DNA of 48,400 nucleotides from Phycicoccus sp. Soil802 (GTDB lineage Bacteria; Actinomycetota; Actinomycetes; Actinomycetales; Dermatophilaceae): contig NZ_LMSS01000001.1 of the NCBI RefSeq assembly GCF_001429605.1, forward strand, positions 261,068 to 309,467, written 5' to 3'. This document shows positions 2,339-45,906 of the stretch, piece by piece. Numbering within the stretch: position 1 is the stretch's first letter; each line of letters begins with the position of its first letter. The notes under the pieces are model-generated. The model did not search any database. It was not told the DNA's origin and saw only the letters and a list, made by a program, of their open reading frames with translations. A program made the translations under genes and the position numbers.

Positions 2339-2752
2339 GTGCCGCTCTCTGAGCACGAACAGCAGCTGCTTGAGCAGATGGAGCAGGCGCTGTATGCCGA
2401 GGACCCCAAGTTCGCCTCGCAGATGCAGGGGGCCGGTGCCCGCGCCTCGGCCCGACGACGGATGGCCGTCGGCGTCGTGGGTGTCGTGGCCGGTCTGGCC
2501 CTCGTCCTCGTCGGCGTGAACACCACGATGTGGATCGGCGCGATCGGGTTCGCCGTGATGGTGAGCGCCGTCGCTTTCGCGCTCACGCCGCCGCGGCGCA
2601 AGACCGCCCTCGGCACGGTCCAGCCGGACGGCACCGTCCGGCGCTCCACCCCCGGCAAGTCGCCGAGCAAGCCCAAGTCCTCCAGGTCCGGCGGGTCGTT
2701 CATGAACCGCATGGAGGAGCGTTGGGACAAGCGCCGGGACGACGGCTACTGA
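2339..2752 (+). CDS. DUF3040 domain membrane protein
   Basis: A 137-residue protein starting PLSEHEQQLLEQMEQALYAEDPKFA, the typical opening of DUF3040 proteins. Two membrane helices follow (about residues 43-60, VGVVGVVAGLALVLVGV, and 63-82, WIGAIGFAVMVSAVAFAL), then a basic, Ser/Lys-rich C-terminal tail. The function of the family is unknown. In many actinobacteria this gene lies between dinB and mraZ at the head of the division and cell-wall cluster. Here the next gene is a convergent DUF456 gene, so that link is broken. The GTG start has an AGGAGG directly upstream. Confidence 0.85.
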   Translation: MPLSEHEQQLLEQMEQALYAEDPKFASQMQGAGARASARRRMAVGVVGVVAGLALVLVGVNTTMWIGAIGFAVMVSAVAFALTPPRRKTALGTVQPDGTVRRSTPGKSPSKPKSSRSGGSFMNRMEERWDKRRDDGY

Positions 2753-2761
2753 TCGCGCAGG

Positions 2762-3247
2762 TCAGCCGCGGCTGAGCAGCACGCCCACGACCCAGGTCAC
2801 GGCGATGGCCAGCGCGGCCAAGAGCTCGATGCCCATCGACAGGAAGACCGCCTTCAGCGCGGCCTTGGTCGAGGCCCAGGCGGCCGACCGGTCCTGCGAG
2901 TGGCCCAGCTCGACCAGGAAGATCCCGCCGACGAACCCGACGGCCGCCCCCACGACGGGGATCACGAAGAAGCCGACGACGGCGAGCAGCACGGCCAGGA
3001 CCAGGGTCGACCGGCGGACGCCCGCCTCGCGCATCCGGCGACCGGGCACGGCATACTGCAGCGCCAGCCCGGCCAGGTAGAGCGCGGCGCACACGCCGAA
3101 GACCGACCACCCGAGGGTGGTCTGGGTGTCGAACGCCCACACGAACACGCCGGCCAGGCATAACAGCAGGCCGGGGATGACGGGAATGACGATCCCCACC
3201 ATCCCGATCACGATCAGGACGGCGGGGACCCAGAGGGTGGCCTCCAT
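2762..3247 (-). CDS. DUF456 domain membrane protein
   Basis: A 161-residue integral membrane protein with about four to five hydrophobic segments. VIGMVGIVIPVIPGLLL near the N-terminus and VVGAAVGFVGGIFLVELG in the middle are Gly/Pro-rich segments typical of DUF456. The function of the family is not established. It converges on the DUF3040 gene with nine bases between, and its stop codon starts a 14-bp perfect palindrome TCAGCCGCGGCTGA (2762-2775) that may help end transcription from both sides. Confidence 0.85.
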   Translation of the reverse strand: MEATLWVPAVLIVIGMVGIVIPVIPGLLLCLAGVFVWAFDTQTTLGWSVFGVCAALYLAGLALQYAVPGRRMREAGVRRSTLVLAVLLAVVGFFVIPVVGAAVGFVGGIFLVELGHSQDRSAAWASTKAALKAVFLSMGIELLAALAIAVTWVVGVLLSRG

Positions 3248-3268
3248 CAGGAGGTCCGCAGTCGCGTT

Positions 3269-3490
3269 CTACCGCTCCTCGAGCGGAGCCACGGTGGGAG
3301 TCTCGTTGAGGCGCTCGGTCTCGTCGACGATGTCAGCGTACTCGCGCAGCTTCGGCAGGTGCTCGCGTCCGTGGTGGGCGCAGAACAGCAGCTCGCCCCC
3401 AGCGTGAAGGCGAGCGCGCACGTAGGCCTGGGCGCCGCAGCGGTCGCAGCGGTCGGCCGCGGTCATAGAGGGTGCCAGTGCAGTGGTCAC
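3269..3490 (-). CDS. small zinc-ribbon-like protein (DUF7455)
   Basis: A 73-residue soluble protein. CDRCGAQAYVRA and, about 20 residues later, LFCAHHGREH give a CxxC...CxxH arrangement that suggests one bound zinc. It matches the small actinobacterial family DUF7455 as I know it. The role is unknown. The GTG start at 3490 is preceded by a strong AAAGGAAGG ribosome binding site five bases upstream, which suggests high expression. It lies 21 bases upstream of the DUF456 gene on the same strand. Confidence 0.85.
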   Translation of the reverse strand: MTTALAPSMTAADRCDRCGAQAYVRARLHAGGELLFCAHHGREHLPKLREYADIVDETERLNETPTVAPLEER

Positions 3491-3857
3491 GTCAGCCTTC
3501 CTTTCGTAACGCCCGGAGGCGCGTTGTCTCTATGAGACGAGGTACCCCGGACTTCGGTTGATACACCGGGGAAGTAACTTTTCCCGATGGCCCGTCCGGT
3601 GCCGTGTCCAACAGTCAAGCACGCCACGTTCTTCCCGGTCGGTATTGGGTCGTCATGTGGGCCATCTCATGTCGCATCGGGTGATTCGTAGATCGGGCGT
3701 CCGGTGGATGGGAAAACCGGCCGCGCAGTGGGTGGGGCCGGTGTGCCGCGTGCCTGCGCGGCGACGGGGGAGCGGCGAGATAGCGTGGGGACACCCCTGT
3801 GCGCGCATGTGTGAGCACGCAGGAGTCGCCGGAACCCACCACAGGAGCACAGCACCG
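3491..3857. promoter_or_regulatory. divergent promoter region between the DUF7455 gene and parE
   Basis: A 367-base intergenic region. Near the DUF7455 side is the inverted repeat GTCTC-TAT-GAGAC at about 3526-3538. A TAGCGT at 3781-3786 could be the -10 of parE with a leader of about 65 bases, but I see no matching -35. The parE reading frame stays open back to 3558, but the extra residues (Arg-rich and of low complexity) do not look like protein. Confidence 0.35.
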
Positions 3858-6005
3858 TTGGCCACCGCCACCACCGCCAAGAAGGCCGCGACCACCAAGT
3901 CGACGTCGGACTACAGCGCGCACCACCTGCAGGTCCTCGAGGGCCTCGAGGCGGTCCGCAAGCGTCCCGGCATGTACATCGGGTCCACCGACGGTCGCGG
4001 ACTCATGCACTGCCTCTGGGAGATCATCGACAACGCGGTCGACGAGGCCCTGGCCGGGGTGTGCGACCACATCGAGGTCGTCCTCTACCGCGACGGGTCG
4101 GTCGAGGTGCGCGACAACGGCCGCGGCATCCCGGTCGACATCGAGCCGCGCACCGGCCTCACCGGTGTCGAGGTGGTCTTCACCAAGCTGCACGCGGGTG
4201 GCAAGTTCGGCGGTGGCTCCTACACCGCTTCCGGTGGCCTGCACGGTGTCGGGGCGTCCGTGGTCAACGCGGTCTCGGCCCGGCTCGACGTGGAGGTCGA
4301 CCGCGGGGGCAACACCTACGCGATGAGCTTCCGCCGGGGCGAGCCCGGCTACTTCCCCGACGTCGCCACCGACGACAAGGCGCCGGACCACGAGTTCACC
4401 CCCTACGAGCGCTCCAGCGAGCTCGCTGTGGTCGGCAAGACCAAGCGAGGGGTCACCGGCAGCCGGATCCGCTACTGGGCCGACGAGCAGATCTTCCTCA
4501 AGGACGCCGAGTTCGACTACGACGGGCTGATCGCCCGCGCCCGCCAGACGTCCTTCCTCATCCCCGGACTGACCCTGGTCATCCGCGACGAGCGACGCAA
4601 GCCGGGCACGGCGGGGGAGACGGCCACCCACGTCGAGACCCTCGTCCACGACGGTGGCATCTCGGAGTTCGCCGAGTTCCTCGCTCCCGACGCAGCCGTG
4701 ACCGACGTCTGGCGCCTCCAGGGCACTGGCACCTTCACCGAGACCGTGCCCGTCCTCGACGCCAACGGCCACATGTCGCCGACCGCCGTCGAGCGGGAGT
4801 GTGCGGTCGACGTGGCGGTGCGCTGGGGCACCGGCTACGACGCCAAGGTCAGCTCGTTCGTCAACATCATCGCCACGCCCAAGGGCGGCACCCACCTGGC
4901 CGGCTTCGAGCAGGCGCTGCTCAAGGTGTTCCGCAAGCAGCTCGAGGTCAACAGCCGACGGCTCAAGGTCGGCAGCGACAAGCCCGAGAAGGACGACGTC
5001 CTCGCCGGCCTGACGGCGGTGGTCACGGTGCGGCTCGCCGAGCCGCAGTTCGAGGGCCAGACCAAGGAGGTCCTGGGCACCAACGCGGTGCGGGCGATCG
5101 TGGCCAAGGTGGTCGAGCAGGAGCTGACCGCGCGGATCACCTCCACCAAACGTGGCGAGAAGGCCCAGGCCGCGCTGCTGCTCGAGAAGGTCGTCTCGGA
5201 GATGAAGTCGCGGATCAGCGCGCGACTGCACAAGGAGACCCAGCGTCGCAAGAACGCGCTGGAGACCAGCAGCTTGCCCGCCAAGCTCGCCGACTGCCGG
5301 TCCACCGACGTCGAGCGGTCCGAGCTGTTCATCGTCGAGGGCGACAGCGCCCTCGGGACCGCGAAGCTGGCGCGCTCGAGCGACTACCAGGCGCTCCTGC
5401 CGATCCGCGGCAAGATCCTCAACGTCCAGAAGGCCTCGGTCTCGGACATGCTCAAGAACGCCGAGTGCGCCGCCATCATCCAGGTGATCGGCGCCGGCTC
5501 CGGGCGGTCCTTCGACCTCGACGTCGCGCGCTACGGCAAGGTCATCATCATGACGGACGCCGACGTGGACGGCGCCCACATCCGGACGCTCCTGCTCACC
5601 CTGTTCTTCCGCTACATGCGTCCCCTCGTCGAGGCCGGGAGGGTGTATGCCGCCGTGCCCCCCTTGCACCGCATCGAGGTCGTCAACCCCGGGTCGAAGA
5701 AGAACGAGCTGATCTACACCTACTCCGAGAAGGAGATGCGCACGACGGTCGCCTCCCTCGGCAAGCGCGGCAAGAACATCAAGCAGCCGTTGCAGCGCTA
5801 CAAGGGCCTGGGGGAGATGGACGCCGACCAGCTGGCCGAGACCACGATGGACCCCCGGCACCGCACGCTGCGCAAGGTGACCCTGCGCGACGCCGAGGCG
5901 GCCGAGCGGGTCTTCGAGCTGCTCATGGGCAACGACGTCGCGCCCCGCAAGGACTTCATCGTCGACTCCGCAGCCGGTCTCGACCGCGAGCGCATCGACG
6001 CCTGA
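3858..6005 (+). CDS. parE: DNA topoisomerase IV subunit B (ParE/GyrB family)
   Basis: A 715-residue type IIA topoisomerase ATPase subunit that acts with ParC in decatenating and relaxing DNA. The GHKL ATPase signatures are HLQVLEGLEAVRKRPGMYIG, IIDNAVDEALAG and DNGRGIPV. The transducer domain follows. The TOPRIM domain has the catalytic EGDSALGTAKLAR near residue 493 and MTDADVDGAHIRTLL near residue 566. The TTG start at 3858 is chosen because CAGGAG lies 10 bases upstream and the conserved sequence begins soon after. The partner parC is on the opposite strand 7.5 kb downstream, as in Streptomyces. It is called ParE rather than GyrB by this context; dnaN/recF-type neighbours of gyrB are absent. 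Confidence 0.88.
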   Translation: MATATTAKKAATTKSTSDYSAHHLQVLEGLEAVRKRPGMYIGSTDGRGLMHCLWEIIDNAVDEALAGVCDHIEVVLYRDGSVEVRDNGRGIPVDIEPRTGLTGVEVVFTKLHAGGKFGGGSYTASGGLHGVGASVVNAVSARLDVEVDRGGNTYAMSFRRGEPGYFPDVATDDKAPDHEFTPYERSSELAVVGKTKRGVTGSRIRYWADEQIFLKDAEFDYDGLIARARQTSFLIPGLTLVIRDERRKPGTAGETATHVETLVHDGGISEFAEFLAPDAAVTDVWRLQGTGTFTETVPVLDANGHMSPTAVERECAVDVAVRWGTGYDAKVSSFVNIIATPKGGTHLAGFEQALLKVFRKQLEVNSRRLKVGSDKPEKDDVLAGLTAVVTVRLAEPQFEGQTKEVLGTNAVRAIVAKVVEQELTARITSTKRGEKAQAALLLEKVVSEMKSRISARLHKETQRRKNALETSSLPAKLADCRSTDVERSELFIVEGDSALGTAKLARSSDYQALLPIRGKILNVQKASVSDMLKNAECAAIIQVIGAGSGRSFDLDVARYGKVIIMTDADVDGAHIRTLLLTLFFRYMRPLVEAGRVYAAVPPLHRIEVVNPGSKKNELIYTYSEKEMRTTVASLGKRGKNIKQPLQRYKGLGEMDADQLAETTMDPRHRTLRKVTLRDAEAAERVFELLMGNDVAPRKDFIVDSAAGLDRERIDA

Positions 6006-6167
6006 CTGGCTGGTCCGCGGCTGCAGCCCTCTCGAGAGCGAAGCGCAAGGCACCTCGAGCCCGCGGCATATGGGGCGTTTGTCGTTGCCGTGCCGCAGGT
6101 TCTACGCCACTGTGGGGGTCTGCAGGAGCCGTGAAGGGCGGCCCCCGCGACCGAGAGTGGGTACGCC

Positions 6168-7604: not shown

Positions 7605-7611
7605 GGCGCGC

Positions 7612-8658
7612 TCAGACGCCCGCCGCTGCCGGCGACCGTCGTTGGCCGGCTGGTCGCGGCGCGGCGGTGGACCCACGCACGATCAGCTCGACGTCGAGGA
7701 CCTCGTCCACCACGGTGTCCCCGGTGCGACCGCGCAGGGCGTCGAGCATCATCTGCCCGGCCCGGCGGCCCTGGGCCTCCACGTCCTGGCGTACCGTCGT
7801 GAGGTCGAAGATCTCCGAGTGGACGTGGTCGTCGATCCCGATGACCGACATGTCCTCGGGCACCCGCAGGCCGTGCCGGCGCGCGGCGCTCAGCACGCCG
7901 AAGGCCATCTCGTCGGAGGCTGCCACGACACACGTGGGGATGCGTGCGCGCGCGAACAGCCGGTTGGCGTGCTCGGCGGCGCCCGCGGCGGTCCAGTCGC
8001 ACTCGAGGGTCCACTCCGGGGGACAGACCAACCCGTGGTCGGACAGCACCGTGGCAAAGGCCTCGCGCCGGTCGAACGGCGTCTGCAGGTGGGTGATCGA
8101 GGCCGGCACGGTGCCGGCGTAACCGATGTCGCGGTGGCCCAGGTCGATCGCGTAGCGCGTGGCCAGCGCCATGGCCGCCCGGTCGTCGATCCGGACCGAC
8201 GGCCAGCCGGGCTGGCGGTTGCCGACGGTCACGACCGGCATACCGAGGCGGTCCAGGACCGAGCGCTCGGCCGGCACCGGTGGCACGTTGAGGATGATCG
8301 CGCCGTCGGCGCGCTTCCAGAGCATCGTCTGGGTGATCGGCAGCCGGGTGTCGAAGGTGTGACCCTCGAGGTCGCAGAGCAGGACGTGGAAGCCCTCCTC
8401 GCGCAGGACCTTCTCGATGCCGCTGACGACCGTGGCGAAGAACCACCGGTTGAAGTACGGGGTGATGACACCCACGCCCCGGGTGCGTCCAGAGACGAGG
8501 CTGGTCGCGGCGGGCGAGGCGACGTAGTGCAGCTCGGTGGCCGCGGCCAGGACCCGGTCGCGGGTGCGCGGGCTGACCCGGTCCACCCCGCGCAGGGCGC
8601 GGGACACGGTAGCCACGGACACACCCGCGGCCCTGGCCACGTCGCCGATGGTGGTCAT
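7612..8658 (-). CDS. LacI family transcriptional regulator
   Basis: A 348-residue repressor-type protein. The N-terminal helix-turn-helix is TIGDVARAAGVSVATVSRALRG (residues 3-24, in two helices), followed by the hinge region and a periplasmic-binding-protein-like ligand domain ending in the dimer-core motif VIGIDDH and FDLTTVRQDVEAQGRRAG. It lies downstream of a sugar ABC importer on the same strand and is probably its regulator: a perfect GTAAACGTTTAC operator-like palindrome lies upstream of the importer's binding-protein gene. The ligand is likely the transported sugar or a derivative. Confidence 0.9.
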   Translation of the reverse strand: MTTIGDVARAAGVSVATVSRALRGVDRVSPRTRDRVLAAATELHYVASPAATSLVSGRTRGVGVITPYFNRWFFATVVSGIEKVLREEGFHVLLCDLEGHTFDTRLPITQTMLWKRADGAIILNVPPVPAERSVLDRLGMPVVTVGNRQPGWPSVRIDDRAAMALATRYAIDLGHRDIGYAGTVPASITHLQTPFDRREAFATVLSDHGLVCPPEWTLECDWTAAGAAEHANRLFARARIPTCVVAASDEMAFGVLSAARRHGLRVPEDMSVIGIDDHVHSEIFDLTTVRQDVEAQGRRAGQMMLDALRGRTGDTVVDEVLDVELIVRGSTAAPRPAGQRRSPAAAGV

Positions 8659-8678
8659 CGCGCACCCCCACTCGAGGT

Positions 8679-12503: not shown

Positions 12504-13529
12504 TCAGCCGACCAGGTGCCCGACCCAGTCCGCCACGTGGACGGCCGCCTTGCCGCACGACTCGGGGAGGTACTCGTGCGCGCGGCGTTCGAGCGCGACG
12601 ACCCACACGCGACCGTCCTTGTGCCGCACCACATACGAGCCACCGACGTCGTCCGCGCCGTCGCCCACGTCGTCCGCGCCGTCGCCCACGTCGTCCGCGC
12701 CGTCGTCCACGCCGGCCGTCGCGTCCCCGGCGCTGAGCGCGGTCAGGTCGGTGATCCCCGCATGGTGCCGGACGAACGACTCCGCGGCCTGGTGGGGACC
12801 GGACAGGGGGCTGCGCCCGCGGTCGTGTAGCGGTCCGAGGACCGATCGAGGCAGGTGGCCGGCGCCGGCCGCGGTCAGGACCTCGGCACATGCCGCGGCG
12901 TCGAGCCTGGCCAGCGTGGCGCCGTGCGGGAGCAGCACACCGGTCGGGGCGAACCGGTGTCCGCCCGTGTGCGACGCCTCCCACACCCTTCCCGGGTGCT
13001 GGGCGAACGACTCCAGGGCGACGGGGCGGCCGCGCACGGCGCAGCAGACGTCGCGGCGTCCGTTGGTGCACAGCAGGAGGATCGGCTCGGCCGGAGCGGC
13101 GCCCGGCGCCGTGGCCAGGACGGCCGTGCGGTCGCCGCTCGCGAGCGCGTCGAGGTCGAGGTCGAGCAGCGTTGCCGGGTCCGTGACCGACAGCTGCAGG
13201 AGCCAGGGCGCCTCACCCGCCCAGGCGAGGTATGCCGTGTGGCCGGCGTCGTGGGCGTCGTCGGCGTGGCGGCCGGGCCGGCGAATCAGTGAGAGTCGAC
13301 CGCCCCGCGCGGAACACGCCTGGGACAGCGAGCGTCCTACTGCCGCAGGCAGATGCGACTCGGTCGCCGCATCCCGACCCCACGGCCCGGACTGCTCGAG
13401 CGCGATGAAGAAGCTGGCTCGAGCGGCCGTGCCGTAGGCGCTGACGTCGGCGCGGTCGAAGCCCACCGAGCAGGCGTCCGGCGCCGGGGTCGCGTGGGAG
13501 ACAGGGCGCGCCGGACCGGTCGACGTCAC
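12504..13529 (-). CDS. sucrase/ferredoxin-like family protein
   Basis: A 341-residue protein of the sucrase/ferredoxin-like family (thioredoxin-like ferredoxin fold). Seen are LLLCTNGRRDVCCAVRGRP, which carries the clustered cysteines expected to hold an iron-sulfur centre, and ASHTGGHRFAPTGVLLPHG, a conserved family motif. The biochemical role in bacteria is unclear. Near the C-terminus is a threefold DGADDVG repeat. The GTG at 13529 is preferred because longer readings would lie inside parC, whose stop is at 13540; no good ribosome binding site is visible, so translation may depend on parC translation. Confidence 0.8.
   Translation of the reverse strand: MTSTGPARPVSHATPAPDACSVGFDRADVSAYGTAARASFFIALEQSGPWGRDAATESHLPAAVGRSLSQACSARGGRLSLIRRPGRHADDAHDAGHTAYLAWAGEAPWLLQLSVTDPATLLDLDLDALASGDRTAVLATAPGAAPAEPILLLCTNGRRDVCCAVRGRPVALESFAQHPGRVWEASHTGGHRFAPTGVLLPHGATLARLDAAACAEVLTAAGAGHLPRSVLGPLHDRGRSPLSGPHQAAESFVRHHAGITDLTALSAGDATAGVDDGADDVGDGADDVGDGADDVGGSYVVRHKDGRVWVVALERRAHEYLPESCGKAAVHVADWVGHLVG
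12648..12710. repeat. three tandem 21-bp units inside the sucrase/ferredoxin-like gene
   Basis: Three adjacent 21-base units, two identical and the third differing at one base, encode three DGADDVG heptads on the minus strand. The near identity at DNA level suggests recent slippage and possible length variation between strains. Confidence 0.85.
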
Positions 13530-16053: not shown

Positions 16054-16683
16054 CTACACCGGGCCTGCCCCCGACTCGCCGCTGAAGTGACCCCGGTGCA
16101 CGACCTCGGTGGCGGCCCGGCGTGGCCGGGTCCGGCTGGACCCCTCGGTGCGCCGCAGCTCGTGGCCCAGGGCCACGACCCCGACCAGCCGCCGGTTCCC
16201 GGGTATGCCGTGGGCCTCCCGCACCGCCGGGTGCCGGGGCGCGGGGACCCCGAAGAACAGCGCCCCCAGCCCCTGGTCGACGGCGGCCAGCAGCATCAGC
16301 ATCGCGGCCATCCCGGTGTCGACGTCCCAGTAGGGGATCGGCCAGCGAGCCGGGTCACGGTCGTCCCAGCCCTTGTCGGGCTCGGCGTAGCGGTCGAGGT
16401 AGGTGTCGGGGTCGGACAGGCAGAGCACCAGTACCGGCGCGGCCGAGACACCCGCCAGCCAGGCGTCGGGTGCCCCCGAGCCCGGGTCCCGGGTCGCGCC
16501 CCAGAAGCGCGCGCGGTCGTGGTCCTCGACGAGCACGACGAAGTCCCAGCCCTGGCTGAAGCCGGCGCTGGGAGCCCGCTGCGCGGCATACAGGACCGCC
16601 TCGAGGGCGGCCGGCGGGACGGGGCGGTCGGGGTCGAAGCGCCGCACCATGCGGCGCCGCCGGACCACGTCTGCGAACTCCAT
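16054..16683 (-). CDS. nitroreductase family protein
   Basis: A 209-residue FMN-dependent oxidoreductase of the nitroreductase family. FADVVRRRRMVRRFDPDRPV at the N-terminus holds the Arg residues that bind the FMN phosphate, and QRAPSAGFSQGWDFVVLV is the usual second motif. AAVDQGLGALFFGVPA is the conserved helix near the FMN ring. The substrate is unknown. The ATG at 16683 begins the conserved sequence. It is divergent from the sigma factor gene. Confidence 0.85.
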   Translation of the reverse strand: MEFADVVRRRRMVRRFDPDRPVPPAALEAVLYAAQRAPSAGFSQGWDFVVLVEDHDRARFWGATRDPGSGAPDAWLAGVSAAPVLVLCLSDPDTYLDRYAEPDKGWDDRDPARWPIPYWDVDTGMAAMLMLLAAVDQGLGALFFGVPAPRHPAVREAHGIPGNRRLVGVVALGHELRRTEGSSRTRPRRAATEVVHRGHFSGESGAGPV

Positions 16684-28416: not shown

Positions 28417-28841
28417 GGTGCACCCCTCTCTTCGTGTGTCAGATGGTCGTTTCACGAGTCGGGTCGGCCGGGCCGGAGGTGAGGACTCTACGGGCTCAGA
28501 CGCCGGAACGGGGACTCGGGGTTGCCCCTCGGGGGTGAATCTTGGGTGAACCCAGACCAGCACTTGGTATGCCGCTGGCGTGCGGACCGGGGTGGCTCGC
28601 CGGTGCCTTGGCGGTGCTTTGGGGGTGCTTTGGCAGTGCTTCGTGGCCACGCGCGGACCGGATCTGGACGCGATGGTGACGTGGCGCCGTGGATAGGGCA
28701 CAATCCCGCCCTGCAGCGGGCACAAAACCGCGGGCACCAGCGTTACACGGGCGAATCGTATTGCCGGGACACCGGCCGATCGTTTTCCCGAGCTTCGGGA
28801 AGACCAAGAACGACGACAGAACAGGGAGAGCGACAGCGACC
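28417..28841 (+). promoter_or_regulatory. 425-base intergenic region upstream of the DUF4193 gene
   Basis: It contains four 11-bp repeats (28602-28645), two copies of GGGCACAA 22 bases apart (28696 and 28718), the small hairpin TGGGTGAACCCA near 28540, and one GTATGCCG (28567). A GGGAG before the DUF4193 ATG is the probable ribosome binding site. I see no gene here; open frames in the region lack protein-like composition. Confidence 0.5.
28602..28645 (+). repeat. four 11-bp direct repeats
   Basis: Units at 28602 (GGTGCCTTGGC), 28613 (GGTGCTTTGGG), 28624 (GGTGCTTTGGC) and 28635 (AGTGCTTCGTG) follow one another without gaps. The 11-bp period places each unit on nearly the same face of the helix, as expected for protein-binding arrays. 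Confidence 0.7.
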
Positions 28842-32458: not shown

Positions 32459-33121
32459 GTCGGTCACTGCGGGCGGTCCGTCGAGCGTGCGCTCGACGGA
32501 GGGCAGCTCGGCCGCCAGGGCGGCCAGGTGGAGCAGGTCACCCTCCTGGAAGACGCTGTCCGCGGCGGGGAGCGTGGCCACACCCAGGCGGGTCAGGTAT
32601 GCCGCGCGGGCCCCGGTGGCCTCCTCGAGCTCGGTGAGGCGTCGGCCGACCCAACCGGGGTTGACGGTCACCTCCGCGATCACGACGTTGCCCGACGGGT
32701 CGACGAGCTCGGGCACGTGGCCCTGCGGGAGCAGCCGCCGCATCATCTGGTCGGCGGTCCACTTCACCGTGGCGACGGTGGGGATGCCGAGCCGCTGGTA
32801 GACCTCGGCGCGGCCGGGGTCGTAGATGCGGGCGACGACGTGCTCGACGCCGAACGTCTCGCGCGCCACCCGGGCCGCGAGGATGTTGGAGTTGTCACCA
32901 CTGGAGACGGCCGCGAAGGCGTAGGCGTCCTGGATGCCCGCCTCGTGCAGGGTGTCGCGGTCGAACCCGACCCCCGTCACCCGTCGCCCCTCGAAGCTGG
33001 ACCCGAGGCGGCGGAACGCCGACTCCTCCTGGTCGATGATCGCGACGTCGTGGCCCTGGCTCTCGAGGCTGTGCGCGAGGGAGGAACCCACCCGGCCGCA
33101 GCCCATGATGACGAAATGCAC
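32453..33121 (-). CDS. ceoB: TrkA-type potassium uptake regulator, CeoB-like
   Basis: A 222-residue RCK protein. HFVIMGCGRVGSSLAHSLESQGHDVAIID is the NAD-binding Rossmann start, followed by GDNSNILAARVARETFGVEHVVARIYDP. The C-terminal TrkA_C domain spans about residues 140-215. The GTG at 33121 begins directly at the Rossmann fold and has a -10 box TAGCGT seven bases upstream, so the message is predicted to be leaderless. It is divergent from the KimA-like transporter gene. Confidence 0.88.
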   Translation of the reverse strand: MHFVIMGCGRVGSSLAHSLESQGHDVAIIDQEESAFRRLGSSFEGRRVTGVGFDRDTLHEAGIQDAYAFAAVSSGDNSNILAARVARETFGVEHVVARIYDPGRAEVYQRLGIPTVATVKWTADQMMRRLLPQGHVPELVDPSGNVVIAEVTVNPGWVGRRLTELEEATGARAAYLTRLGVATLPAADSVFQEGDLLHLAALAAELPSVERTLDGPPAVTDQ

Positions 33122-33200: not shown

Positions 33201-35207
33201 GTGCCCAACTCTTCACGCGTCGTCAAGCGTGTGCTCGTCGGACGCGCGATGCGTAGTGACCGGCTGGGCGACACGCTCCTGCCGAAGCGGCTCGCCCTCC
33301 CGATCTTCGCCAGCGACGCCCTGTCCTCGGTGGCCTATGCACCGGACGAGATCTTCCTGACGCTCGGCCTGGCGGGTGGCTTCCTCGCCCTGACCCACTC
33401 GTGGGAGATCGGGCTGTGCGTCGTCGGCGTCATGCTCGTCGTGGTCGCGTCGTACCGGCAGAACGTGCATGCCTACCCCTCCGGCGGTGGTGACTACGAG
33501 GTCGCGACCACCAACCTCGGGCCCAAGGCCGGTCTCACCGTCGCTGCCTCGCTGCTCGTCGACTACGTGCTCACCGTGGCGGTGTCGATCTCCTCGGGTG
33601 TCCAGAACGCCGCGGCCGCCCTGCCGTTCATCCGCGGCCACGAGGTGATCGTCGCCGTCGGCCTGGTCGCGCTGCTCACCGCGATGAACCTGCGCGGGGT
33701 GCGCGAGTCGGGCAAGGCCTTCGCGCTGCCGGTCTACCTCTTCATGGCGAGCGTCATCGGCATGGGCATCGTCGGGCTGGTCCGCGAGCTCACGGGGTCG
33801 CTGCCCCAGGCGGAGAGCGCCGCGTTGACGCTGGCCCCGGAGAAGGGCTTCGAGTCGCTCGGCAGCTTCGCGATGATGTTCCTGCTCCTGCGCGCCTTCT
33901 CTTCGGGCTGTGCCGCGCTGACCGGCGTCGAGGCCATCTCGAACGGCGTCCCTGCCTTCCAGAAGCCCAAGAGCAAGAACGCCGCGACCACCCTCCTGCT
34001 GATGGGCGTCATCGCCATCACGATGCTCATGTCGATGCTGACCCTGGCCAAGTGGACCGGCATCAAGTACGCCGAGGACCCGGGCACCCAGCTGCTCCGC
34101 GACGGCAAGCCGGTCGGCGACACCTACGTCCAGGACACGATCATGGGGCAGGTGGCCAAGGCGGTCTTCTCCGGCTTCCACCCCGGGGTCGTGCTGGTCT
34201 CGATCGTCGCGGGGCTCATCCTCATCCTGGCGGCCAACACCGCGTTCAACGGGTTCCCGGTGCTGGCCTCCATCCTCGCCAAGGACGGCTACCTGCCGCG
34301 CCAGCTGCACACCCGCGGCGACCGACTCGCGTTCTCCAACGGCATCCTCATCCTCGCCGGCGCGGCGGCCCTGCTCATCGTCATCTACGACGCCGAGGTC
34401 ACCAAGCTGATCCAGCTCTACATCGTGGGCGTCTTCGTGTCGTTCACGTTGAGCCAGACCGGCATGATCCGGCACTGGAACCGGCACCTGCGGCTCGAGC
34501 GGGACGGGGCCGTGCGGCGCCGGATGATGCGCAGCCGCATCATCAACGCCGTCGGCGCGACGATGTCCGGCACGGTCCTGGTCGTGGTGCTGCTGACCAA
34601 GTTCATCCACGGGGCCGGCTACGCCATCGCGGCGATGATCGTCATCTTCTTCATCATGGTGCGTATCCACCGGCACTACGATCGGGTCCGGGCCGAGCTG
34701 CGGATCAGCGACGACGACCTGGATGCCCAGATGCTCCCGAGCCGGGTGCACGCGATCGTCCTCGTGTCCAAGATCCACAAGCCGACCCTGCGCGCCCTCG
34801 CGTACGCGCGGGCCACCCGCCCGTCCAAGCTCGAGGCGATCACGGTCAACGTCGAGCCCGACGAGACCAAGGCGCTGCAGGACGAGTGGGACCGACGCGA
34901 CATCCCCGTGCCGCTCAAGGCCCTCGACTCGCCCTACCGCGAGATCACCCGCCCAGTCGTCGAGTACGTCAAGTCGCTGCGCTCCGGCCACCCCCGCGAC
35001 GTCGTGGTGGTCTACATCCCGGAGTACGTGCTGGGCAAGTGGTACGAGCAGGTCCTGCACAACCAGAGCGCCCTGCGCCTCAAGGGCCGGCTGCTCTTCA
35101 CGCCGGGCGTGATGGTGGCCAGCGTGCCGTGGCAGCTGGCCTCGTCGGAGGGCCAGGAGGAGCGGTTCGACGGCCCCACGGCGGGCTCCGTCCGCCTCGG
35201 GCAGTGA
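33201..35207 (+). CDS. KimA-like APC superfamily potassium transporter
   Basis: A 668-residue protein with 12 expected membrane helices and a cytoplasmic C-terminal domain of about 180 residues. The sequence follows Bacillus KimA closely, as far as I can recall it: SDALSSVAY at residues 38-46 (Asp39 and Tyr46 match residues implicated in K+ binding), HAYPSGGGDY, SLLVDYVLTVAVSISSG, AFSSGCAALTGVEAISN, RGDRLAFSNGI and, in the C-terminal domain, HNQSALRLKGRLLF. In databases such proteins are often listed only as APC amino acid permeases (M. tuberculosis Rv2690c is the syntenic one). Its divergent pairing with ceoB/ceoC supports potassium transport. The last base pair of its stop overlaps the next start (GTGA). 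Confidence 0.82.
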   Translation: MPNSSRVVKRVLVGRAMRSDRLGDTLLPKRLALPIFASDALSSVAYAPDEIFLTLGLAGGFLALTHSWEIGLCVVGVMLVVVASYRQNVHAYPSGGGDYEVATTNLGPKAGLTVAASLLVDYVLTVAVSISSGVQNAAAALPFIRGHEVIVAVGLVALLTAMNLRGVRESGKAFALPVYLFMASVIGMGIVGLVRELTGSLPQAESAALTLAPEKGFESLGSFAMMFLLLRAFSSGCAALTGVEAISNGVPAFQKPKSKNAATTLLLMGVIAITMLMSMLTLAKWTGIKYAEDPGTQLLRDGKPVGDTYVQDTIMGQVAKAVFSGFHPGVVLVSIVAGLILILAANTAFNGFPVLASILAKDGYLPRQLHTRGDRLAFSNGILILAGAAALLIVIYDAEVTKLIQLYIVGVFVSFTLSQTGMIRHWNRHLRLERDGAVRRRMMRSRIINAVGATMSGTVLVVVLLTKFIHGAGYAIAAMIVIFFIMVRIHRHYDRVRAELRISDDDLDAQMLPSRVHAIVLVSKIHKPTLRALAYARATRPSKLEAITVNVEPDETKALQDEWDRRDIPVPLKALDSPYREITRPVVEYVKSLRSGHPRDVVVVYIPEYVLGKWYEQVLHNQSALRLKGRLLFTPGVMVASVPWQLASSEGQEERFDGPTAGSVRLGQ

Positions 35208-36502
35208 CCACCGCCCCGCCCCCTGGAGCTGCGCTCGCCGTCGGCGACGTGGTGACCCTCGACATCGGCGCGGTGGCGCACGGCGGGTTCTGCGTCGCGC
35301 GGCACGAGGGCCGGGTCGTCTTCGTCCGCCACGCGCTGCCGGGCGAGCGCGTCAACGCCCAGGTCACCGAGGCCCGCGGGGGCCAGCGGTTCGTCCGGGC
35401 CGACTGCGTGGAGGTGCTCGACGCCAGTCCGCACCGCGTCACCCCGCCGTGCCGGTATGCCGCCCCCGGGCTCTGCGGTGGGTGCGACTTCCAGCACGCC
35501 ACGCTCAGCTACCAGCGAGAGCTCAAGACGTCGGTCGTCCGTGAGCAGTTCGCCCGGTTGGCCAAGCAGGACGTCGAGGTCGTCGTCGAGGCGCTCCCCG
35601 GCGACCACGAGGGCCTGGGCTGGCGCACCCGGGTGGAGTTCGCGGTCGATGACTCCGGTCGGGCCGGGCTGCGGGGGAGTCGCTCGCACGACATCGTGCC
35701 CGTCGACACCTGCCTGATCGCCGACCCGCGCATCCTCGCCACCGGCGTCCTGACGCACGACTGGTCAGGCGAGTCGGCCGTGGACGTGGCGGCACCGTCG
35801 GAGGGCGAGGCCGTCGTGGTCGCTCTCCCCACCGATGAGACGGACCCTCCCGCCGTCACCGAACACGTGGTGGGACAGACCTTCTCGGGCCGGTTCGAGG
35901 TGTCCGCCCGCGGCTTCTGGCAGGTGCACCCCGGCGCGGCCGCAACCTTCGTCGACACGGTCACCGGCCTGCTCGAGCCGCGCGCGGGCGAGACCGCCCT
36001 CGACCTGTATGCCGGCGTCGGCCTCTTCGCCGCAGCCCTGGCCCAGCGGGTGGGCGAGTCGGGGAAGGTCGTCGCGGTGGAGTCGGACGCGGGAGCCGTC
36101 GCGTCCGCGGCAGGCAACCTCGCGGCATACCCGTCGGTCGCGGTGGTCCGCGCCCGCGTCGACGACGCGTTCGGGGTGCCGCGGGCCAGCCGGTCGGGGC
36201 CCACCCGCAACCGTGCGCAACGGCAGCGCAAGCTGCGTCGCCACCCCCTGATCCCGCTGCGTGCCGACCTGGTGGTGCTCGACCCGCCACGGACCGGCGC
36301 CGGTCGCGACGTCACTGCGCAGGTGGCCGCCCTGGAGCCGCGGGCGATCGCCTACGTCGCCTGCGACCCCTCGGCGCTGGCCCGGGACTCGGCCTTCCTG
36401 GCCGCGGCCGGCTACGAGCTGGGGGAGCTGCGCGCCTTCGACGCGTTCCCGATGACCCACCACGTCGAGTGCATCGCGCTGTTCACGAGGACCACGACGT
36501 GA
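35204..36502 (+). CDS. TRAM-domain RNA (uracil-5)-methyltransferase, TrmA/RlmD family
   Basis: A 432-residue SAM-dependent RNA methyltransferase. The N-terminal TRAM domain is GDVVTLDIGAVAHGGFCVARHEGRVVFV in two strands. CRYAAPGLCGGCDFQH with a later DTCLIAD gives the four Cys of the [4Fe-4S] cluster. The SAM site is ALDLYAGVGLFAAAL, and the active site motifs are VVLDPPRTGAG and YVACDPSALARD. A basic insertion of about 25 residues (SGPTRNRAQRQRKLRRHP in part) precedes the DPPR motif. Target RNA is unknown. The start overlaps the transporter stop, so the two are coupled. Confidence 0.9.
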   Translation: MTTAPPPGAALAVGDVVTLDIGAVAHGGFCVARHEGRVVFVRHALPGERVNAQVTEARGGQRFVRADCVEVLDASPHRVTPPCRYAAPGLCGGCDFQHATLSYQRELKTSVVREQFARLAKQDVEVVVEALPGDHEGLGWRTRVEFAVDDSGRAGLRGSRSHDIVPVDTCLIADPRILATGVLTHDWSGESAVDVAAPSEGEAVVVALPTDETDPPAVTEHVVGQTFSGRFEVSARGFWQVHPGAAATFVDTVTGLLEPRAGETALDLYAGVGLFAAALAQRVGESGKVVAVESDAGAVASAAGNLAAYPSVAVVRARVDDAFGVPRASRSGPTRNRAQRQRKLRRHPLIPLRADLVVLDPPRTGAGRDVTAQVAALEPRAIAYVACDPSALARDSAFLAAAGYELGELRAFDAFPMTHHVECIALFTRTTT

Positions 36503-39528: not shown

Positions 39529-39571
39529 CTGAGGGGTATGCCGCGTGGTCACCACGCGGCATACCCCTCAG
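39529..39571. terminator. very long perfect hairpin downstream of acn
   Basis: Arms of 21 bases (39529-39549 and 39551-39571) are exact complements around one central base; the real loop would be three to five bases. The arms contain GAGGGGTATGCCGCGTGG. It lies 22 bases after the acn stop and also covers the stop codon of a convergent gene remnant, so it can end transcription from both sides. Confidence 0.8.
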
Positions 39572-39654: not shown

Positions 39655-39660
39655 GGGCCG

Positions 39661-39687: not shown

Positions 39688-39694
39688 TCGACCC

Positions 39695-40144: not shown

Positions 40145-40182
40145 GGCCTCGGGGTTGGTGCCGGCCGCCGGCCGGTCCCGGC

Positions 40183-40593: not shown

Positions 40594-40744
40594 GGCGCGC
40601 TCCTGCGAAGAAGGTCGGGATGGGCTGCCCCAATGCTAGGAACGCGGTGTGGTCTGGGCTTCTCGATTCCTGACGGATCCGTCGGCGCGCGGCCGCGGCG
40701 TGGGTCGCAGTCAGGCCCTGGGAGCCCCTCGGGCGCCGTGGTGG
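40594..40744. other. intergenic region between the VOC and DUF222 genes
   Basis: It holds the minus-strand promoter of the VOC gene (TAGCAT, near 40634-40639) and the palindrome GACGGATCCGTC (40672-40683). Nothing else was recognised. Confidence 0.4.
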
Positions 40745-42205: not shown

Positions 42206-42211
42206 GGGTCA

Positions 42212-42239
42212 AACCTAGGACGTGGCACCGACAGTGCAA
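42212..42239 (-). promoter_or_regulatory. leaderless promoter of the DUF222-HNH gene
   Basis: On the minus strand TTGCAC (-35, 42239-42234), a 16-base spacer and TAGGTT (-10, 42217-42212) precede the ATG by six bases. This is the best-defined promoter in the window. Confidence 0.65.
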
Positions 42240-42342
42240 CCCAACCGTCCGACGGCGAATCAGGTTGCTGTGCATAACTTTTCGACCATCGTGCTGGTGT
42301 GGACAGGCGACGCAGATACGGCGCCCACAAGACTCCTACCGA

Positions 42343-42369
42343 CTCGTGGAGGCGAGGCACTCGCACGAG
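42343..42369 (-). terminator. hairpin downstream of the MoxR/VWA operon
   Basis: Outer arms CTCGT/ACGAG and inner arms GCGAG/CTCGC with a three-base loop form a stem with one bulge, 19 bases after the stop of the VWA gene. Confidence 0.45.
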
Positions 42370-42387
42370 CCGGCCACGCGGCATACC

Positions 42388-44409
42388 TCAGTCGTCGACC
42401 CAGAACCCCCGGCCGCCGCCGTAGAAGCCACCGAACTGCTCGCGGTAGGAGCCGGGACCGCGCGACCCGAGGTAGCTGCCGACGACGGCCGCACCGAGGT
42501 CGTCCAGCTCCGGCGCCACGACGCGGCCGTCCACCCGCTTCGCCATCTGGTCGATGAACCGGGCCAGCCCCGGGTCCTCGCCGAGCCGGAAGAACGTCAC
42601 CTGCGCTCCGAGCCGGGCCACGTTGTCGAGCTCGCGCACGCTGTAGGCGACGGTGAGGGGGTGTGGCGGGTAGTCGAAGTAGACCTGGCCGTCGGGTTCG
42701 AGGTGCGCGGTCGGCTCGCCGTCGGTCACGACGAGCAGCACCGGCTGCGCGCTCGGGTGCTTGCGGAAGTGCCGCGCCGCGAGCAGCAGCGCGTGGTGCA
42801 GGTTGGTGCCCTTGGCCCACTGGGCGTCGAGACCAGTGAGCTGCTCGATGTCCATCACCTCCGCATGCCGTCCGAACCCGATCAGCTGGAGGGCGTCGCC
42901 ACGGAACCGGCTGGAGATGAGGTGGTGCAGGGCCAGGGCGGTGCGCTTCATCGGCACCCAGCGCCCGTCCATCGCCATCGAGAACGACGTGTCGACGAGC
43001 AGGGCGACGCAGGCCTGGGTGCGCGCCTCGGTCTCGGTGACCTCCACGTCGCGGATGTCGAGGCGTATGCCGCGTGCGGGCTGGCCGCCTTCACCCGCCG
43101 TCCGCAGCACGGCGTTGGTGACCGTGCGGGTGACGTCCCAGGGTTCGGTGTCACCGAACTGCCACTCCCGGGTGGCGCCGCTGGCTTCGCCGGCCGCCCC
43201 GGCGTGCCGCACGTCGCGCTGTCCCTGGCGTCCGGACAGCCGGGTGGCGACATCGCGCAGCAGGGCCTTGCCGAGCTGGCGCATCGCCTTGGGGGACAGT
43301 CGCAGCTGTCCGTCCGAGGTGCGGTTGAGGTAGCCCGAGTCGCGCAGGGCGCGCTCCAGCTCGCTCAGGGTCCTGGCGTCCACCGCGGCGTCGTCGCCGA
43401 CCAGCCGGGCCAGGGCGTCGATGTCGATGTCGTCCATCCGCGCGCCGGGATAGGACTGCGAGAGCTGCTCGGCGAGCTCGTCGAGCGACGCGAGCTGTTG
43501 CAGGGCCCCGGTGCCGTCGCCGAGACCGAGCCCCTGCGACCCCTCGAACTCCTCGGAACCTCCCCAGTCCTCACCGGGACGCAGCGCCTGCAGGTTGGCG
43601 TCGAGCTGCCCCAGCTGGTCCATGAGCGCCGGTGACCTGAACGCCTGCGCCGACAGCTGCATCAGCTCGGCCCGCTGTTCGGCGGTCATCGAGTTCAGCA
43701 TCCGCTGCGCTGCGGCCGCCCGCTGGGCCAGGCTGTCGATGAGCTCGTCGACGTCCTGTGGGTTGTCGGGGAAGAAGTCACCGTGCTGCTCCATGAACTC
43801 GCGGAACTGCTCGGTGGTGTCCTCGCCCCGCGCGTGGGCCGCGAGCAGGTCGTTGAGGTCCGAGAGCATCCGGCGGACCTCTTCGCGGTCCTCGTCGGTT
43901 GCGTTCTCGAGGGCCTGCTTCATGCCGGCGAACCGCTGGTCCAGGGCCTCGCGGCCGAGCAGGTCCTTGATCCGTTCGTAGTCGGCCCGCGCGGACGGGC
44001 TGCGCCACGGGTAGTCGGACAGCTCGCTGACGGCCCCCGCGGTGGACGGCGGCAGGCTCTCGATCCGCATCTCGGCCAGCCTGGCGTCGTCGTCGAGGTC
44101 GCGGGCCAGCCGCTTGCGCTCCTCGAGCACGGCACGGTCGAGCAGCTCGCGGACCTCGCGCAAGGTGCCGTCGAGCGAGTGCCGTTGCAGCAGCTCCTGG
44201 CGCTTCTCGGCCACCCTGCGGGCCAGGTCGTCCAAGCCGGTCTGGTCATGGCTGCCTCGGCGCAGGTACTCGCGCATGGCGTGGTCGGCGGAGTAGCCGG
44301 CCATGACGTCCTGACCGATCGCGTCGAGGGCGTCGGCCAGGTCGACCGGGGGTGCCAGGGGGTCAGGCCCGCCTGAGTACCGCGCGTACCGCGACCGGTG
44401 CGGGCTCAT
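42388..44409 (-). CDS. VWA domain protein partnered with a MoxR-type ATPase
   Basis: A 673-residue protein. Residues 1-450 are mostly charged helix with possible coiled coil. The von Willebrand A domain is C-terminal: CVALLVDTSFSMAMDG gives the MIDAS DxSxS, with the later Thr in WAKGTNLHHALLLA and the Asp in VLLVVTDGEPTAHL. The C-terminal tail is Gly/Tyr/Phe-rich (FGGFYGGGRGFWVDD). Pairs of MoxR AAA+ and VWA proteins act as chaperones that mature or activate other proteins or metal sites. The client is unknown. Its ATG overlaps the stop of the ATPase gene by four bases. Confidence 0.88.
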   Translation of the reverse strand: MSPHRSRYARYSGGPDPLAPPVDLADALDAIGQDVMAGYSADHAMREYLRRGSHDQTGLDDLARRVAEKRQELLQRHSLDGTLREVRELLDRAVLEERKRLARDLDDDARLAEMRIESLPPSTAGAVSELSDYPWRSPSARADYERIKDLLGREALDQRFAGMKQALENATDEDREEVRRMLSDLNDLLAAHARGEDTTEQFREFMEQHGDFFPDNPQDVDELIDSLAQRAAAAQRMLNSMTAEQRAELMQLSAQAFRSPALMDQLGQLDANLQALRPGEDWGGSEEFEGSQGLGLGDGTGALQQLASLDELAEQLSQSYPGARMDDIDIDALARLVGDDAAVDARTLSELERALRDSGYLNRTSDGQLRLSPKAMRQLGKALLRDVATRLSGRQGQRDVRHAGAAGEASGATREWQFGDTEPWDVTRTVTNAVLRTAGEGGQPARGIRLDIRDVEVTETEARTQACVALLVDTSFSMAMDGRWVPMKRTALALHHLISSRFRGDALQLIGFGRHAEVMDIEQLTGLDAQWAKGTNLHHALLLAARHFRKHPSAQPVLLVVTDGEPTAHLEPDGQVYFDYPPHPLTVAYSVRELDNVARLGAQVTFFRLGEDPGLARFIDQMAKRVDGRVVAPELDDLGAAVVGSYLGSRGPGSYREQFGGFYGGGRGFWVDD

Positions 44410-45818
44410 CCGTAGACCGTCTCCCCGTCCGCCGAGTCCTTGTCGACGCGGCGCGCGAGGTAGAGGGCCTCGAGCGCCAGCTCCACCGCGCCGGCCCGCT
44501 CACCGGCGCTGTGCGCATCGAGCCGGTCCGCGATGGCGTCGTAGAGGTCGGACTCGCCGAGCACCGGCAACCCGGCCAGCACGTCGGTGGCCGCCACCTG
44601 CTCGCCGGTGGTGACGGTGGCGCCACCCTCCAGGGCGGCGACCAGCAGGGCGAGGTCGATCCCGGCCAGGTGGCGTCGAGCGGTGTCGGCGATGGAGGTG
44701 CGCAGCAGGTGGGTCAGGATCTCCTGCTCGCGACCCTCCTCACCGGTCTCGAACTCGATCTTGCCGGCGAGCACCTCGACGGCACTGTCGAGGTCGACGA
44801 CTCGGGCCACGGCCTCGGGCTCGCCCTGACGGGTGGCGCGGTGCAGGGCGGCCGCGGCGACCGTCTCCGCCCCGGCGATGGAGAACCGCGCCGAGACGCC
44901 GGAGCGCTGGTCGACCGAGCTCGACTCCCGCAGCGCGCGGGTGAACCGGGCGAGGACCTCGACGAGGTGGTCGGGCACCTGGGCGACCAGGGCGGCCTCC
45001 TGCCGGATGACGGCCATCTCGTCCTCGAGCTCGCGCGGGTAGTGGGTGCGGATCTCGGCGCCGAACCGGTCCTGCAGGGGAGTGATGATCCGGCCCCGGT
45101 TGGTGTAGTCCTCGGGGTTGGCGCTGGCTACCACCAACACGTCCAGGGGAAGCCGCAGGACGTAGCCGCGGATCTGGATGTCGCGCTCCTCCATCACGTT
45201 GAGCATCGCGACCTGGATCCGCTCAGCGAGGTCGGGCAGCTCGTTGATCGCCACGATGCCGCGGTGGCTGCGGGGGATCAGCCCGAAGTGGATCGTCTCG
45301 GGGTCGCCGAGCGAGCGCCCCTCGGCGACCTTCATCGGGTCGACGTCGCCGATCAGGTCGGCGACGGAGGTGTCCGGAGTGGCGAGCTTCTCGGCATACC
45401 TCTCGTCGCGGTGCCGCCACTCGATCGGGAGGTCGTCGCCCAGCTCCGCCACCCGTCGCCGTGAGGCGTGGATGACCGGCTCGTAGGGGTGCTCGCCGAG
45501 CTCGGACCCGGCGATCACCGGGGTCCACTCGTCGAGCAGCCCGACGAGGCTGCGCAGCAGCCGGGTCTTGCCCTGCCCCCGCTCGCCGAGCAGGACGATG
45601 TCGTGGCCGGCGAGGAGGGCTCGCTCGAGCTGGGGGATGACGGTGGTGGCGAAGCCGTGCAGCCCGGGCCACGGGTCGCGGCCCTCGGCGAGTGCGGCGA
45701 CGAGGTTGCCGCGCACCTCCTCGCGGAGGGTGCGGTGCTCGTGACCAAAGGCGCGCAGCTCGCCGAGGGTCGAGGGAGCGGGCGGGGGAGCAGTGGTGGA
45801 GGCAGAGGGGTGCGTCAC
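44406..45818 (-). CDS. MoxR/magnesium chelatase-type AAA+ ATPase
   Basis: A 470-residue AAA+ ATPase. Walker A is LLGERGQGKTRLLRSL near residue 75; Walker B with sensor is GIVAINELPDLAERIQVAMLNVMEER, where Asn replaces the more common Asp before Glu; sensor 1 is VLVVASANPEDYTNRG, and PLQDRFGAEIRTHYP holds the arginine finger. Automatic annotation may call it a sigma-54-interacting regulator, but no DNA-binding domain is seen. It forms an operon with the VWA gene. The GTG at 45818 is directly preceded by GAGGAG and, six bases upstream, a TAGCGT -10 box, which fits leaderless translation. Confidence 0.87.
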   Translation of the reverse strand: MTHPSASTTAPPPAPSTLGELRAFGHEHRTLREEVRGNLVAALAEGRDPWPGLHGFATTVIPQLERALLAGHDIVLLGERGQGKTRLLRSLVGLLDEWTPVIAGSELGEHPYEPVIHASRRRVAELGDDLPIEWRHRDERYAEKLATPDTSVADLIGDVDPMKVAEGRSLGDPETIHFGLIPRSHRGIVAINELPDLAERIQVAMLNVMEERDIQIRGYVLRLPLDVLVVASANPEDYTNRGRIITPLQDRFGAEIRTHYPRELEDEMAVIRQEAALVAQVPDHLVEVLARFTRALRESSSVDQRSGVSARFSIAGAETVAAAALHRATRQGEPEAVARVVDLDSAVEVLAGKIEFETGEEGREQEILTHLLRTSIADTARRHLAGIDLALLVAALEGGATVTTGEQVAATDVLAGLPVLGESDLYDAIADRLDAHSAGERAGAVELALEALYLARRVDKDSADGETVYG

Positions 45819-45824
45819 CTCCTC

Positions 45825-45830
45825 ACGCTA
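45825..45830 (-). promoter_or_regulatory. -10 box of the MoxR/VWA operon
   Basis: TAGCGT on the minus strand, six bases before the GTG start. The GAGGAG between them touches the GTG and is too close to work as a usual ribosome binding site. Confidence 0.45.
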
Positions 45831-45906
45831 ACCCCGCCTGTGCCGGATCCGTATGCCGGGGACCGCCCTTCGGACTCACCGGTCGCGTCCCAGCCCGCTC
45901 GCCCGG

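Follow-up and report, generated by a model that had tools for sequence, protein, structure and literature searches.

A frequent eight-base word with one-base dialects in one actinobacterial family, probably a DNA uptake sequence

Why does one eight-base word, GTATGCCG, occur twenty times in 48,400 nucleotides of an actinobacterial chromosome? The stretch of Phycicoccus sp. Soil802 that raises this question (the window; G000:C1:261068-309467, in a genome of 4.29 Mb on nine contigs) had been given a preliminary description from its letters alone, in which about two copies were expected by chance and a genome-wide signal such as a recombination, uptake, nucleoid or segregation sequence was proposed. 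All twenty copies were found again, in position and in strand. The excess over chance also stood, whereas two expected copies proved an overestimate, as the copies in 100 dinucleotide shuffles averaged 0.72 and never exceeded 3. Codon override, site conservation, restriction to one family and one-base dialects support a signal at the level of DNA, and within the proposed list uptake is favoured: GTATGCCG is probably best understood as a DNA uptake sequence that comes in dialects.

Over the whole genome the word is found 2241 times (1143 forward and 1098 reverse), against 51 (25 + 26) for the control, which is the word read backwards (reversed GTATGCCG). Among the 1680 8-mers of equal composition it ranks third by raw count in 908.4 kb, with 475 copies versus a median of 25, and only GTCGTCGA (501) and TCGTCGAG (478) outrank it. 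Shuffled words are not equally frequent, the runner-up to GTATGCCG within the NTATGCCN set being CTATGCCG with 19 copies (908 kb). An order-3 Markov model on 448 kb, the expectations of which are inflated by GTATGCCG itself, puts it on top of all 8-mers (243 copies versus 11.0 expected, z 70); the largest excesses among its 24 single-base neighbours are those of ATATGCCG (4 versus 1.5), CTATGCCG (10 versus 4.4) and GGATGCCG (74 versus 42.7). A maximal-order Markov test within the window alone did not single out the word, because its sub-words carry the excess. The counts for the reversed, equal-composition and NTATGCCN words therefore show neither a genome count near expectation nor equally frequent shuffled words, the two outcomes that the preliminary description had named as speaking against it.

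Is it the DNA word or the protein that is kept? The former had been proposed, TAT, GCA and ATA being rare codons elsewhere, and a sample of 488 kb of the genome, with 442 genes called by a home-made codon-score script (gene starts are approximate), bears this out in three frames; the same sample is the basis of the strand and placement counts. Tyrosine between G and GCC-G is written TAT in 124 of 137 cases, versus 90 of 2512 for other tyrosines (Fisher p 3e-137). GCA makes up 53 of the 102 alanine codons that stand between CG and TAC, whereas GCN-TAC not preceded by CG never has GCA (0/261). For isoleucine flanked by CGGC and C, the codon ATA is used in 19 of 76 cases, with 9 of 4371 elsewhere. 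Seen from the codons, 124 of the 214 TAT and 19 of the 28 ATA lie within GTATGCCG. It is therefore the DNA word that is preserved.

The strand-skew check gave no polarity, with 138 copies on the plus and 131 on the minus strand and none of 23 stretches skewed (heterogeneity chi2 8.2, 23 df, p 0.998). Copies are spaced 1687 bp apart on average; 206 of the 269 lie inside genes, 3 overlap gene ends and 60 (22%) are intergenic, where 14.2% of the bases are found (p 2e-4), so that the intergenic excess noticed in the window holds in the larger sample. The flank of the intergenic copies, hairpin pairs included, reads G-GTATGCCG-CGTGG, with G in 73% before the core, followed after it by C 68, G 77, T 50, G 77 and G 65%. 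The core GTATGCCG is strict, and its extension is loose and one-sided, reaching in the 3' direction to about GGTATGCCGCGTGG; like its variants GGATGCCG and GTACGCCG, described below, the word is non-palindromic. Copies at most 40 bp apart (908 kb) are arranged head-to-head in 14 cases, tail-to-tail in 4 and on the same strand in 2. In the window, two head-to-head extended words (39536-39543 on the plus and 39557-39564 on the minus strand) form an intergenic hairpin at 39529-39571 with a perfect 20-bp stem (predicted -43 kcal/mol, z -10.9), and short near-copies of it are present in at least 7 of the 11 genomes of the genus.

Conservation in related genomes had been suggested as a check, and an alignment with the relative G004 left 128 of 176 copies identical, against 36.4% of all aligned 8-mers. 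In ten relatives from the genus the identity of the window sites broadly tracks the relative's own genome count of GTATGCCG, on a background of 0.24 to 0.38 for all 8-mers. It is 14/14 in G003 (2551 genome copies), 12/17 in G005 (3986) and 10/13 in G008 (2537), which have high counts; 13/18 in G004 (1927), 9/16 in G010 (2476), 8/15 in G006 (1468), 5/14 in G001 (1192) and 3 of the 4 aligned sites in G002 (1934); and 3/14 and 1/13 in the low-count G007 (625) and G009 (836). In these last two, TAT is used in no more than 6 of 17 and 7 of 19 tyrosine contexts of the word, respectively. From the low site identity and the low use of TAT it therefore seems that the force maintaining the word has become weaker or ceased in some species, where the copies would be decaying. 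The word is also scarce in the first 60 kb of contig 1 (G000:C1:1-60000; L210, L001, L211), with 7 copies, a density about one fifth of what is usual, and its first 20 kb are free of them. This region has a lower GC content and carries a Mu-type transposase besides BrxL, GmrSD, AbiV-type/restriction endonuclease and type ISP restriction genes; the word-poor defence island is probably acquired DNA.

How far does the word extend? All 11 genomes of the genus are enriched (625 to 3986 copies, with 43 to 159 of the reversed word). Its family is probably Intrasporangiaceae/Dermatophilaceae, judging from the named comEC loci and the NCBI genus list; we take Dermatophilaceae to be the family name in GTDB. 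The family sample comprised 149 genomes of 53 genera, 130 of the genomes being at least 90% complete and at most 5% contaminated, and its summary counts, like those for the tree labels below, were transcribed by hand from search tables. With enrichment thresholds of 100, 450 and 300 copies/Mb for GTATGCCG, GGATGCCG and GTACGCCG, set by eye, 83 genomes from 31 genera are rich in GTATGCCG (median 491, up to 1356 copies/Mb), the remaining 66 have a median of 14 copies/Mb, and five genera hold genomes of both classes. Around comEC the copies per 20 kb are 15.0 in Knoellia remsis, 19.8 in Phycicoccus elongatus, 11.8 in Humibacillus xanthopallidus, 10.8 in Terrabacter sp., 9.0 in Intrasporangium oryzae, 4.5 to 14.3 in Ornithinimicrobium and 5.4 in Arsenicicoccus bolidensis; the comEC loci of Janibacter indicus (12 kb), Intrasporangium flavum, one uncultured Phycicoccus and Dermacoccus abyssi have 0. 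A survey of the order covered 396 genomes, 361 of them from 19 families outside the word's own, and by eye none of the 361 reaches 100 copies/Mb, the highest being G354 at about 80 (177 copies, 135 of the reversed word). Pooled over 55 loci of other actinobacteria, 14 copies are found in 1.10 Mb. One Kribbella sp. locus outside the family (L152) has 3 copies in 22 kb, which may be chance.

Is the word simply missing from word-poor genomes, or is another in its place? A blind search for over-represented words, run on word-poor samples and on 11 word-rich control samples, returned a one-base variant of GTATGCCG on top in some of the former. The variant was GGATGCCG in G036, whereas G109 and G033 both gave GTACGCCG. 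In the controls GTATGCCG or an overlapping word came out on top in 10 of 11 samples and was missed in G125; because of this miss it is weak evidence that no replacement word stood out in the samples (12 to 100 kb) from some genera lacking all three words. GGATGCCG is raised in three genera (G036, G026, G073, G110 and G124; 3619 to 4480 copies), namely g27 (3949 in G036), g17 (3816 and 3838 in two genomes) and g44 (4480 in G110 and 3619 in G124, where GTATGCCG is down to 361 and 288). Two further g44 genomes, G053 and G087, carry both words, with 2195 and 2099 copies of GGATGCCG beside 1217 and 1189 of GTATGCCG. Other family genomes have 241 to 1336 copies of GGATGCCG, and the highest of them, G011 (g2), may be weakly raised.

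GTACGCCG is raised in about five genera, with 2111 to 4185 copies in G049, G109, G085, G033, G057, G089 and G114. The counts are 3903, 4185 and 2111 in g40; 2618 and 2366 in g48, with 785 in a third genome; 2529 and 1125 in g3, with 345 and 347 in the other two of its four genomes; 2216 in g24; and 1359 in g25. The baseline is roughly 115 to 660 where no word is raised and goes up to about 1000 in word-rich genomes (1011 in G009, 870 in G140). Codon choice leans the same way in small samples, with GTA in 3/5 versus 12/540 (G033) and 2/7 versus 16/591 (G109) for GTACGCCG, and GAT in 5/8 versus 8/349 (G036) for GGATGCCG; the last is partly a general effect, because a weaker lean to GAT is seen without the GGATGCCG dialect in G000 (3/17 versus 79/2444) and G131 (4/9 versus 150/1425). 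In about thirteen genera none of the three words is raised (by eye), and g2, g20, g21 and G078 are ambiguous. A GTACGCCG dialect in G078 (1463 copies) is doubtful, GTA being absent from 40 C-GGC-GTN-C contexts although GCG stands in 14 of 18 positions before TAC. For G007 and G009 it was ruled out, as neither has a GTA or GCG override; they resemble decay.

On a tree of 71 ComEC domains five word labels need 19 changes, a number as low being reached in 0 of 200 shuffles; single-label shuffles gave 2 (C), 1 (G) and 4 (TG) of 500. The GGATGCCG label needs three changes, which could be gains, or gains with reversals. The tree, built from one 271-column domain, leaves 20 forks open, has a single long branch (G060) and carries labels for 67 of the 149 family genomes. 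Two other words were noticed. CGAAGGGGG leads the 9-mers in word-poor samples from G131 (L053-L055, L069; 21 versus 1.8), G046 (L077) and Janibacter indicus (L138) and may be a signal, for ribosome binding or something else; GTACGGCG is 4-fold over-represented in G078 (L040-L044; 60 versus 14.7), possibly a Tyr-Gly codon effect.

Which machinery could read such a word? The genome carries comEA (SLBB and HHH domains with a long variable N-terminal part) and comEC at L038:11811-15286, beside degV and a gene for a glycerol-3-phosphate acyltransferase. It also has a CpaF-type tad locus at L110:6229-16495, which encodes an RcpC/CpaB protein, a VWA-T2SSF protein and a CpaE-like ATPase. ComEA is open, with conserved domains, in all nine genus members examined (of 11), word-rich and word-poor. 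In 20 loci chosen for a TadA-type ATPase, ten from rich and ten from poor genomes, gene calls gave TadB/C-like proteins in 19, Flp in 17 and TadE in 16, and nothing was confined to the word-rich genomes; this grouping predates the dialects, the 'poor' G036, G109 and G033 being dialect carriers and the 'rich' G009 a low-count member of the genus. In nine genus members, no gene of the comEC locus or of the CpaF-type tad locus was missing from G007 and G009 alone, and a by-eye comparison of 16-17 Flp, TadE and TadF sequences gave no receptor candidate. The L110 tad locus also holds a pair of proteins of about 450-470 amino acids that are found only in some genus members; of the two, the one scanned matches nothing in Pfam.

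The absence of strand polarity, the strict core with a loose one-sided extension, the hairpin pairs, the scarcity in the island and the dialects favour uptake. The pairs, the conservation and the dialects, which are shared with Neisseria words, together with the uptake of DNA through tad and com genes in Micrococcus luteus and the presence of comEA, comEC and tad in the genome, are the reason why we think of GTATGCCG as an uptake sequence. A surface receptor of the competence system would prefer DNA that bears the word; kin DNA would thereby be taken up and recombined more often, and the biased uptake and recombination would create and keep copies chromosome-wide, in both orientations and with a density of roughly one in 1-2 kb. 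A shift in receptor specificity would lead to a genome rewritten in a one-base dialect (GGATGCCG or GTACGCCG), and loss of the specificity or of transformation would let the copies decay to preferred codons. Uptake as the force, its action through a Tad/Flp pilus with ComEA/ComEC, a specific receptor and the direction of the changes (decay, rewriting) are what we infer. In its wider form the proposal is of sequence-specific uptake outside the two Gram-negative families known for it, by actinobacterial Tad/Flp competence with a word of its own in one family, with repeated one-base dialects, repeated loss and a receptor unrelated to ComP; to this we lean with some reserve.

Several observations weigh against uptake. 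Any slowly spreading word would also be scarce in an acquired island. In the span syntenic with G004, unaligned DNA is as dense in copies (41 in 71.6 kb, 0.573/kb) as aligned DNA (172 in 316.8 kb, 0.543/kb), which speaks against a simple core-genome bias. The control is high in some genomes of the rich class, where the ratio of word to control is as low as 2.5 (G025), with a median of 10.2; the highest ratio in the poor class is 10.3 (G124, a dialect carrier). As predictors of the word, competence and pilus genes were ruled out: ComEC is present in 145 and a T2SSE-type ATPase (Tad or other) in 148 of the 149 family genomes, word-rich or not, so that word-less relatives equally carry this machinery, and PilM of the type IVa pilus is present in 5. 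The window's own genome has no such PilM, and hence no ComP-type system is in sight. Setting the tad and com loci of rich genomes beside those of poor ones brought no receptor candidate to light; since word-less relatives keep the same genes, the specific receptor would have to be a protein outside this set or some diverged portion of it.

The main rival, a serious though rather unlikely one, is that an orphan DNA methyltransferase together with a sequence-directed bias of mismatch repair gives rise to the word and keeps it, with no role in uptake, dialects arising when the specificity of the methyltransferase changes. Cyanobacterial highly iterated palindrome 1 (HIP1) and its alternates offer a precedent, described in part of PMC4390886 as a genome-wide word linked to methyltransferases and replaceable in some genomes, and GTATGCCG does contain methylatable adenines and cytosines. 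Those words are palindromic, however, whereas GTATGCCG is asymmetric, with a one-sided extension and head-to-head hairpin pairs, none of which is demanded by methylation and repair. Genome-wide density and conservation would suit a signal for chromosome architecture, segregation or recombination, of the type of Chi, FtsK-orienting polar sequences (KOPS) or nucleoid-protein sites, which we consider unlikely. Chi and KOPS are skewed in orientation along the replichore, and strand polarity is absent here (138/131, p 0.998, 23 stretches); a count that runs from 625 to 3986 within one genus and falls to background level in several genera would be unlikely for an essential segregation signal, and the main word differs even within one genus (g44).

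That the word acts in RNA, as a transcription terminator or another element, is very improbable. Its head-to-head pairs do form strong predicted hairpins, several of them intergenic, but only 8 such pairs within 60 bp stand against 269 copies in the 488 kb, of which the 206 in genes lie on either strand; these counts largely refute termination as the general function, and a secondary role as terminator may exist. An artefact of composition or codon usage is scarcely credible: GC-rich 8-mers made of common codon pairs are frequent too, and yet GTATGCCG uses the rare codons TAT, GCA and ATA, outnumbers its reversal by 2241 to 51 and is restricted to one family, so that the counts refute this explanation.

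Returning to the window, independent gene calls agree with the five copies that had been described as intergenic, that is, the hairpin pair and those at 28567-28574 (plus), 42379-42386 (minus) and 45851-45858 (plus), and the frames of ten named positions, derived by hand from the new calls, match those given before (Tyr-Ala, Ala-Tyr, Gly-Ile and Gly-Met). The Tyr-Ala frame is used at 2392-2399 (plus) in a DUF3040 gene, where the copy is the same in 6 of 8 aligned genus relatives, at 16584-16591 (minus) in a nitroreductase gene and at 36007-36014 (plus) in gene 35204-36502; this last gene also holds copies at 35455-35462 (plus) and, in the Ala-Tyr frame, 36123-36130 (minus). Ala-Tyr recurs at 13230-13237 (plus) in a minus-strand gene and at 32597-32604 (plus) in a minus-strand TrkA-type gene. 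The Gly-Ile frame, with ATA, is found at 16203-16210 (plus) in the minus-strand nitroreductase gene and at 43065-43072 (plus) in a minus-strand VWA-domain gene, and the GGT-ATG frame at 8236-8243 (minus) in a LacI-type regulator gene, the same in 1 of 9 aligned relatives. Further copies lie at 3049-3056 (minus) in a DUF456 gene, 5645-5652 (plus) in the gyrase-B-type gene 3858-6005 and 45392-45399 (minus) in the AAA-ATPase gene 44406-45818; a head-to-head pair spans 20733-20767 (20733-20740 plus, 20760-20767 minus) within gene 18856-21522. When 6.3 kb of the window were compared with plasmids, 32 records matched; the ten matches listed lie on aconitase or permease genes or on unannotated DNA. 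Other words over-represented in the sample of this genome (window, L001-L020, L038-L039) are CCCGATAA (12 versus 0.3), AATTGGCC (13 versus 1.1) and CTGCGCGA (137 versus 50).

DNA uptake words are known from Neisseriaceae and Pasteurellaceae, and an actinobacterial word with dialects would, if true, be a further, independent case. Why uptake words evolve (kin recognition, repair, selfish drive) would then be testable over 53 sampled genera with natural presences, switches and absences; the word would be a handle for a new class of sequence-specific DNA receptor; and the right tag on donor DNA might ease the transformation of environmental actinobacteria, which make up most of the family. No report of GTATGCCG or of any actinobacterial uptake word was found in titles and abstract openings of the literature searched, which did not include bioRxiv and most subscription journals. 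Outside Neisseria and Haemophilus, a 2025 paper states in the part considered, almost all competent species take up DNA irrespective of its sequence (PMC12040237).

The closest likeness is to the DNA uptake sequence (DUS) of the Neisseriaceae, with which the word shares, as sequence features, thousands of copies, both orientations, inverted pairs, excess conservation and dialects. According to parts of PMC2397512, inverted pairs of Neisseria words act as terminators, the words are conserved far above their surroundings and their spacing is near the size of conversion tracts; the 1687 bp found here are somewhat above the 1128 to 1500 bp that part of the literature reports for Neisseria. Dialects are described in part of PMC3630211 as barring exchange between species, and in one Neisseriaceae genome two dialects occur together, at 155 and 2964 copies. 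Unlike DUS, the present word is a different one, in another phylum and in monoderm cells with no type IVa PilM, and is known from sequence only. The core-genome bias of Neisseria is not seen here in the tested G004-syntenic span.

The uptake signal sequence (USS) of the Pasteurellaceae has a short core with a loose flank, and its word is unrelated to GTATGCCG. It is likewise a genome-wide word, with conservation and placement similar to those of DUS (in part of PMC2397512); its hosts, unlike those studied here, are Gram-negative and its effect on uptake is established. HIP1 is alike as a dominant genome-wide 8-mer that is swapped for other words in some genomes, and unlike as a palindrome tied to methyltransferases, for which the part of PMC4390886 considered makes no mention of hairpin pairs. 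A system from the same order is that of Micrococcus luteus, in which transformation through tad (Tad/Flp) pili and comEA/EC is reported in PMC4322843, a paper whose main text has 0 occurrences of the term 'uptake sequence'; the comEA/comEC genes and tad parts of M. luteus are of the same kinds as those found in the family that carries GTATGCCG.

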